From positions 1 to 64,000 of the forward strand of contig JAJRXC010000005.1 of assembly GCA_024276495.1 (NCBI GenBank): a stretch of DNA of 64,000 nt, in the 5' to 3' direction. Of the stretch, positions 4,029 through 4,880 are shown one piece after another; within the stretch, counting starts at the first letter, position 1; each line of letters starts with the position of its first letter. The notes below the pieces were generated by a model. That model made no database searches. It was not told the DNA's origin and worked only from the letters and a program-made list of their open reading frames with translations. A program made the translations under genes and the position numbers. This DNA is from Actinomycetes bacterium. GTDB lineage: Bacteria > Actinomycetota > Acidimicrobiia > Acidimicrobiales > Aldehydirespiratoraceae.

Positions 4029-4880
4029 ATGGAGACGAGTTCGCCGGTGAGCGACACCGATGCCGAGGCCGACGGCGCCCCGATCGCGGCCCCCGCGGCC
4101 GGCGCCGACGCGCTCAACGCGATCCTCATGGCCGACGATGTCGCGGCGGCGCTCTGGGCGGCGGTCGACAGTGGCCGGATCGACGACCTCGTACCCGAAC
4201 TTCCGTTGTTGCGGATGGAACAGGATCCGATCCATCGACACAAGGAGGTGTTGTCCCACACGATCGCCGTGGTCGCGAAGACCCCCGACGACCTGATCGT
4301 GCGGTTGGCTGCCCTGTTCCACGATGTCGCGAAGCCCCGTACCCGCAGCTTCGAGCACGGTGGTGTCACCTTCCGCCATCACGAGGTGGTCGGGGCCCGG
4401 ATGACCCGGGCGCGAATGACCGCCCTCGGCTACGACGACGAGATCGTCGACGAGGTCAGCGAGCTCGTGCGGCTCAGTGGCCGGTTCAAGGGGTACACGG
4501 AGGGCTGGTCCGACAGTGCGGTGCGGCGCTATGCCCGCGATGCCGGACCGCTTCTCGGCCGGCTCAACGCCCTGATCCGATCGGACTGCACCACCCGCAA
4601 CAAGCAGAAGGAAGCCGATCTCCAGGCGGCGATCGACGAGCTCGAATCCCGCATCGCGGTGCTCGCCGAGGAGGAACGACGAGCGGCCGAACGTCCCCAG
4701 ATCGACGGCCAGGCGGTGATGGCCCATCTCGACACACCGGGAGGGCAACACATCGGTCGGATCCTGAAGATGCTGCTCGAGGTGAAACGCACCGAGGGCG
4801 AGCTCCCCGAAGACGAGATCTATCGTCGCGTCGATCTCTGGTGGGAGAAACATCGAGATGAGTACGACTCGGCCCGTTAA
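4029..4880 (+). CDS. HD-domain protein related to the C-terminal part of CCA-adding enzyme (no nucleotidyltransferase domain)
   Basis: A 283-residue protein that aligns by eye with the second half of actinobacterial tRNA nucleotidyltransferase (PcnA/CCA). It has the entry motif DPIHRHKEV, the HD metal motif in [10 protein letters not shown], the arm region with [16 protein letters not shown], and a C-terminal [10 protein letters not shown] segment. The whole N-terminal polymerase-beta-type head (about 200-230 residues, with GxGxS and DxD) is absent. The upstream DNA encodes the divergent SDR, so this is not simply a mis-called start. It could be a stand-alone RNA phosphodiesterase/phosphatase or a tRNA-binding partner (inference). 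The next gene, asd, starts 10 bases downstream but seems to have its own promoter. Confidence 0.8.

Follow-up and report, generated by a model that had tools for sequence, protein, structure and literature searches.

A stand-alone HD/arm half of the CCA-adding enzyme in Acidimicrobiia and loss of the corresponding HD site in its full-length partner

Introduction

The 64,000-nucleotide stretch of Acidimicrobiia DNA analysed here (the window) carries a gene that resembles only the HD/arm half of the CCA-adding enzyme. This raises the question of whether the gene is a fragment, an additional hydrolase working beside a normal CCA enzyme, or one part of an enzyme that has been split. To our knowledge, little is established about what the HD domain of CCA enzymes contributes in the cell; one reason is that the fused domain is hard to separate from the essential polymerase. 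Below, S denotes stand-alone proteins of the window gene's type, D denotes full-length enzymes with a decayed HD domain, and C denotes normal fused enzymes.

The window gene encodes an intact HD/arm protein

The gene is an open reading frame at 4029-4880 on the forward strand, with an alternative in-frame ATG at 4023, and its product is 283-285 aa long. Residues 27-273 match positions 212-466 of the 466 positions of the NCBIfam profile TIGR02692 (E 3.8e-78, 263 bits), that of the actinobacterial CCA tRNA nucleotidyltransferase, PcnA. The original prediction described the protein as colinear with the C-terminal two thirds of that enzyme; the colinearity holds, but the match extends over only about 55% of the parent profile. 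The score lies below the curated cut-off (263 vs 438.8 bits) because the head is missing. HD is the sole domain found in a Pfam search (PF01966, 36.3 bits vs a cut-off of 22), and the HDIG profile TIGR00277 is also matched (44.6 vs 27.6). The PolyA_pol head (PF01743), with its catalytic DxD and RRDFT motifs, has no match in the window protein and is absent across S. These results agree with the prediction of an HD/arm half that lacks the catalytic head.

The gene upstream, at 3186-3971, encodes a short-chain dehydrogenase on the opposite strand and thus cannot supply a head, as had been anticipated. A semialdehyde dehydrogenase gene lies 10 bases downstream and is a local neighbour; no conserved gene neighbour or operon partner of S was found across the 54 loci compared. 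The only tRNA in the window, tRNA-Pro(CGG) at 26433-26507 on the reverse strand, serves here as context: it has no encoded CCA and so needs CCA addition, which was the original reason for expecting a full-length enzyme elsewhere.

The full-length partner has lost its HD domain

The window assembly (4.33 Mb in 111 contigs, 97% complete, 4% contamination) does contain such an enzyme. Its one PolyA_pol head is on contig 111 (G000:C111), within a 438-aa protein whose head and RNA-binding domain are normal. The C-terminal half of this protein has no HD match, and BLAST detected no significant similarity between it and the window protein. Alignment shows that it has lost the HD motif, the hairpin that follows and the last Asp. 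The idea of an extra hydrolase beside a normal CCA enzyme is therefore correct as to the full-length partner and incorrect as to its being normal. A nucleotidyltransferase-only gene in a genome with no full-length CCA enzyme, the arrangement that the prediction had set against its own, is ruled out for the window assembly, whose partner enzyme spans the full length and has its C-terminal half remodelled. Since the HD domain of that partner is destroyed, the case falls between the predicted situation and a split enzyme, with two activities apparently placed on two proteins.

The genes surrounding the 438-aa enzyme are those of canonical pcnA loci, with rpsF, ssb, rpsR, rplI and dnaB downstream and HDAC, DegV and kinase genes upstream. 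None of these native neighbours is shared by the three S loci tested. D is thus the native gene, and S is the relocated half.

Distribution among Acidimicrobiia

A search for HD-only homologues, as proposed with the original prediction, recovered S genes in several Acidimicrobiia families. In the window's own family, 50 of 51 genomes have a match to the S query, with identities of 58-85% in nearly every case; a nucleotidyltransferase head is encoded elsewhere in the genome in 49 of the 51. The match in one genome (G033) comes solely from its full-length D enzyme; S was detected neither there nor in G050 although D is present in both, perhaps because of incompleteness. Among the 395 genomes of the class that were searched, S-type genes occur in families f1, f12, f14, f19, f21 and f29, and a head was found in 22 of the 23 further S genomes of f12-f29. 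In other families, the matches listed are almost always fused ORFs of about 460 aa or longer. Named relatives belong to Acidimicrobiales and include the marine MedAcidi-G2B and MedAcidi-G3, Candidatus Microthrix and Candidatus Poriferisocius.

Two families show S in other company. The loci of f2 correspond to records that bear the name Ilumatobacteraceae, and S is found in 10 of 150 genomes of this family. Six of these have S beside an intact C enzyme (both sequences were read for five of the six), which is the arrangement that the original prediction had pictured. The other four belong to genus g81 (G399, G819, G807 and G841), and a decayed full-length enzyme was seen in G399, G819 and G841; in a fifth genome of this genus, G830, the fused PcnA is intact and S is absent. 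In f21, S is kept beside an E. coli-like CCA enzyme that carries an HD domain itself (L083, L084, L257, L258). This enzyme is encoded at a locus without the native neighbours, apparently in place of native pcnA, which was not found in this family. A separate observation concerns G344, of family f8, which encodes a very divergent stand-alone HD protein (L299) together with a full-length enzyme (L075/L274) that is also decayed. This is possibly another case, but the branch leading to L299 has a length of 4.5 and its position in the tree is unsure.

Conservation of the HD site

Conservation was assessed in an alignment of 94 S, 45 C and 61 D sequences, in which some species are present twice. Every S row (n=94) retains H, H, H, HD, K, H and D. 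The first HD-site histidines (residues 69, 71 and 77) lie in an H-rich segment at 4233-4262 (+) that is invariant in alignment A1 and in 94/94 S. The HD dyad, His98-Asp99, at 4320-4325 (+), is invariant in S and missing in 60 of 61 partner enzymes, and the last HD-site Asp (Asp186) lies in the DCTTR segment at 4584-4598 (+), likewise invariant in S. The D enzymes keep the head residues GG, second Asp, RRD and R in 61/61 sequences, and the His-Asp dyad is retained only in L313 (1/61). Identity in the HD core is 0.73 for C, 0.78 for S and 0.25 for D, as against 0.59 in the D head. Close S pairs have dN/dS values of 0.03-0.24, and D pairs have values of 0.15-0.29, except for one very short pair at 0.77. 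S is under purifying selection. Family-wide presence, invariant HD residues and dN/dS together rule out a pseudogene or an assembly fragment.

One segment of the HD site differs consistently from the fused enzymes. Residues 150-156, encoded at 4476-4496 (+), read SGRFKGY in place of HLRFHTY. Residue 150 is Ser in 94/94 S, and in 8/8 Ilumatobacteraceae S, and His in 44/45 fused enzymes. The fused HLRFH corresponds to SGRFK in split-clade S, with the second His changed to Lys in all, and to SGRFH in g81 S. The same His to Ser change is seen in fused PcnA of the f2 genus g49 (L135, L145, L148, L149 and L153), which reads LVFLSGRFHTY. Dinuclear HD proteins have an H-HD-H-H-D pattern, in which the first His of HLRFH would be a metal ligand. 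S departs from this pattern in having Ser where the additional His would follow the third one, ahead of the last Asp. By analogy with dinuclear HD proteins, rather than from a structure of the PcnA-derived HD family, we infer that S would bind one metal ion and not two. The constant Ser at this presumed metal-site His means that metal number or substrate may have changed.

Descent and order of events

In a tree of the HD half rooted on sixteen other Actinomycetota, the S proteins form a single clade (100/100) nested within Acidimicrobiia PcnA, and thus share the descent of their HD half with the TIGR02692 family. When the outgroup is left out, C forms one side of a branch with support of 100/99. 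In the head tree, D heads group among Acidimicrobiia heads. We have high confidence that the gene stands alone, that it arose once and that the partner underwent a reciprocal loss, all of which are well supported.

The number of HD decays is less clear. The decayed g81 heads are sister to the intact head of G830 (100/96 and 99/93), which points to a separate second decay in g81, with S present. A single decay, joining the g81 decayed enzymes with those of the split clade, is not rejected by an AU test (p 0.25). The decayed heads of the split clade were joined in the first head tree (90/97), and a larger sample leaves their grouping open. As to the order of events, genome G927 encodes a half-decayed enzyme, L313, which keeps LLHDLAK and has lost HRH, the hairpin and the final Asp, together with a complete S (L165). 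This genome and the sister relationship of the g81 heads suggest that S came first and that HD decay in the full-length enzyme followed.

A viral origin of S was also considered and rejected, IMG/VR holding only distant relatives (<=39% identity). Five viral contigs of that collection (L320, L323, L342, L348 and L349) have CCA-type HD ORFs of about 220-260 aa with no head motif; phages may be another setting in which HD halves became separate. In addition, two unannotated faecal sequences labelled as phage, MT835611.1 and MT836608.1, are 45-47% identical to the HD half, although these contigs may be of bacterial origin.

Predicted structures and comparison with known systems

The predicted structure of S (pLDDT 88.8) has its top PDB matches in the tRNA processing enzyme of entries 3wfo-3wfs (Z about 20.7, 180-184 residues, rmsd 2.1-2.6). 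The H...HD...D motif, with its residues present in 94/94 sequences, and the HD fold, seen as this structural match, are therefore both found in S. The 3WFO-3WFS enzyme shares the HD domain with S but differs in being fused to a head, in having only ~25% identity, and in carrying His at the position of the Ser in S. YqeK, PgpH and PhnZ also share the HD fold (VIA Z 7.5-10.7) but belong to other families and have no PcnA-derived arm. The D model (pLDDT 91.2) is closest to the Bacillus CCA enzyme 1miv (Z 31.0, 391 residues, rmsd 3.6), a class II enzyme that we take to lack an HD site, and D has thus converged on the form of class II enzymes without HD. Both combine a head with a helical body without the HD site. 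They differ in that D arose via decay of an actinobacterial HD domain and not by Bacillus-type descent.

Among fused enzymes, S is homologous and colinear with PcnA/TIGR02692 (M. tuberculosis Rv3907c) over positions 212-466, with a common H..HD..H..D core, but lacks the nucleotidyltransferase head and a complete RNA-binding domain, has SGRFK for HLRFH, and is encoded at a separate locus. The E. coli CCA enzyme has a C-terminal HD domain of the same kind, although there it is fused to the polymerase and distant in sequence from S. In the fused M. tuberculosis enzyme, the HD domain hydrolyses pNPP in a metal-dependent manner, an activity abolished by H298A, and the authors of that study propose a role in repairing damaged tRNA 3' ends (PMC10673834). 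The same paper cites Yakunin 2004 for 2',3'-cyclic phosphodiesterase activity of the HD domain in the E. coli enzyme. No paper on a stand-alone HD half in Acidimicrobiia was found in the literature searched, with subscription journals mostly outside it.

What does the stand-alone protein do?

The best explanation of these data is that the HD phosphohydrolase job moved to a protein of its own and the copy inside the polymerase then decayed, to which we assign a probability of roughly 0.6. The HD/arm half of Acidimicrobiia PcnA would have been copied once to a new locus, without the nucleotidyltransferase head. With HD activity supplied by S, the HD site of the native full-length enzyme would have been free to decay, while CCA addition would stay with D at the native locus. 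S would be a metal-dependent HD phosphohydrolase that most likely strips terminal phosphates or 2',3'-cyclic phosphates from tRNA 3' ends, clearing them so that CCA can be added or re-added. That S is a hydrolase is supported by motif and fold, and its activity and tRNA substrate are inferred by homology to the M. tuberculosis and E. coli enzymes. The likeliest reading, favoured somewhat over even odds, is that the relocated job is still phosphate removal at tRNA ends; its main rival is a change of substrate. The fullest version, in which S would be a stand-alone tRNA 3'-end repair phosphohydrolase acting in trans and the polymerase was freed at least twice to turn Bacillus-like and HD-less, is more tentative, at slightly worse than an even chance. 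Points against the best explanation include the SGRFK changes, S beside HD-intact enzymes, the lack of any neighbour hinting at tRNA, the two genomes (G033 and G050) without a detected S, and the AU p value of 0.25.

Several of these points would be expected if S had instead taken on another substrate, such as a nucleotide, a signalling molecule or another RNA end, with the PcnA HD domain decaying independently, for example because its activity is dispensable, as in Bacillus-type enzymes. The constancy of the His to Ser and His to Lys changes at the presumed metal site of S is consistent with a new substrate, as are S loci without tRNA-related neighbours, and class II CCA enzymes without HD do exist (1miv). 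S is also retained beside HD-intact CCA enzymes, the foreign one of f21 and those of six Ilumatobacteraceae genomes, and is thus more than a replacement. We nevertheless consider this explanation the less likely one: in both the large clade and g81, the PcnA HD domain has decayed where S is present, and S keeps the arm/tail expected to bind tRNA, with a tail identity about equal to that of fused enzymes (0.56 vs 0.57).

The company that S keeps bears equally on whether S might bind D and rebuild an HD-bearing CCA complex in trans. S and D nearly obligately co-occur, and both retain the arm/tail region. However, S also occurs in genomes whose CCA enzyme is an intact C or an unrelated one, so that no gap in a partner needs filling there, and the D model suggests that D alone folds as a complete Bacillus-like enzyme; we regard such a complex as improbable. 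Least probable is that S is a pseudoenzyme or a decaying remnant. It has lost one presumed metal ligand, but its remaining HD residues are invariant, its HD core is conserved across families (0.78), and the low dN/dS of close pairs and the match in 50/51 family genomes also speak against such a remnant.

Implications

Evolution appears here to have put two activities on separate genes, and S can be deleted, expressed or swapped alone. Living lineages display what appear to be stages of this process: a fused intact enzyme, a fused enzyme plus S, a half-decayed enzyme plus S, and a fully decayed enzyme plus S. A word of caution also follows, in that HD-only proteins resembling partial CCA enzymes need not be fragments. 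If the proposed function is correct, CCA maintenance would have been divided in nature into its two halves, carried by S and D, with S as a trans-acting tRNA 3'-end repair phosphohydrolase.
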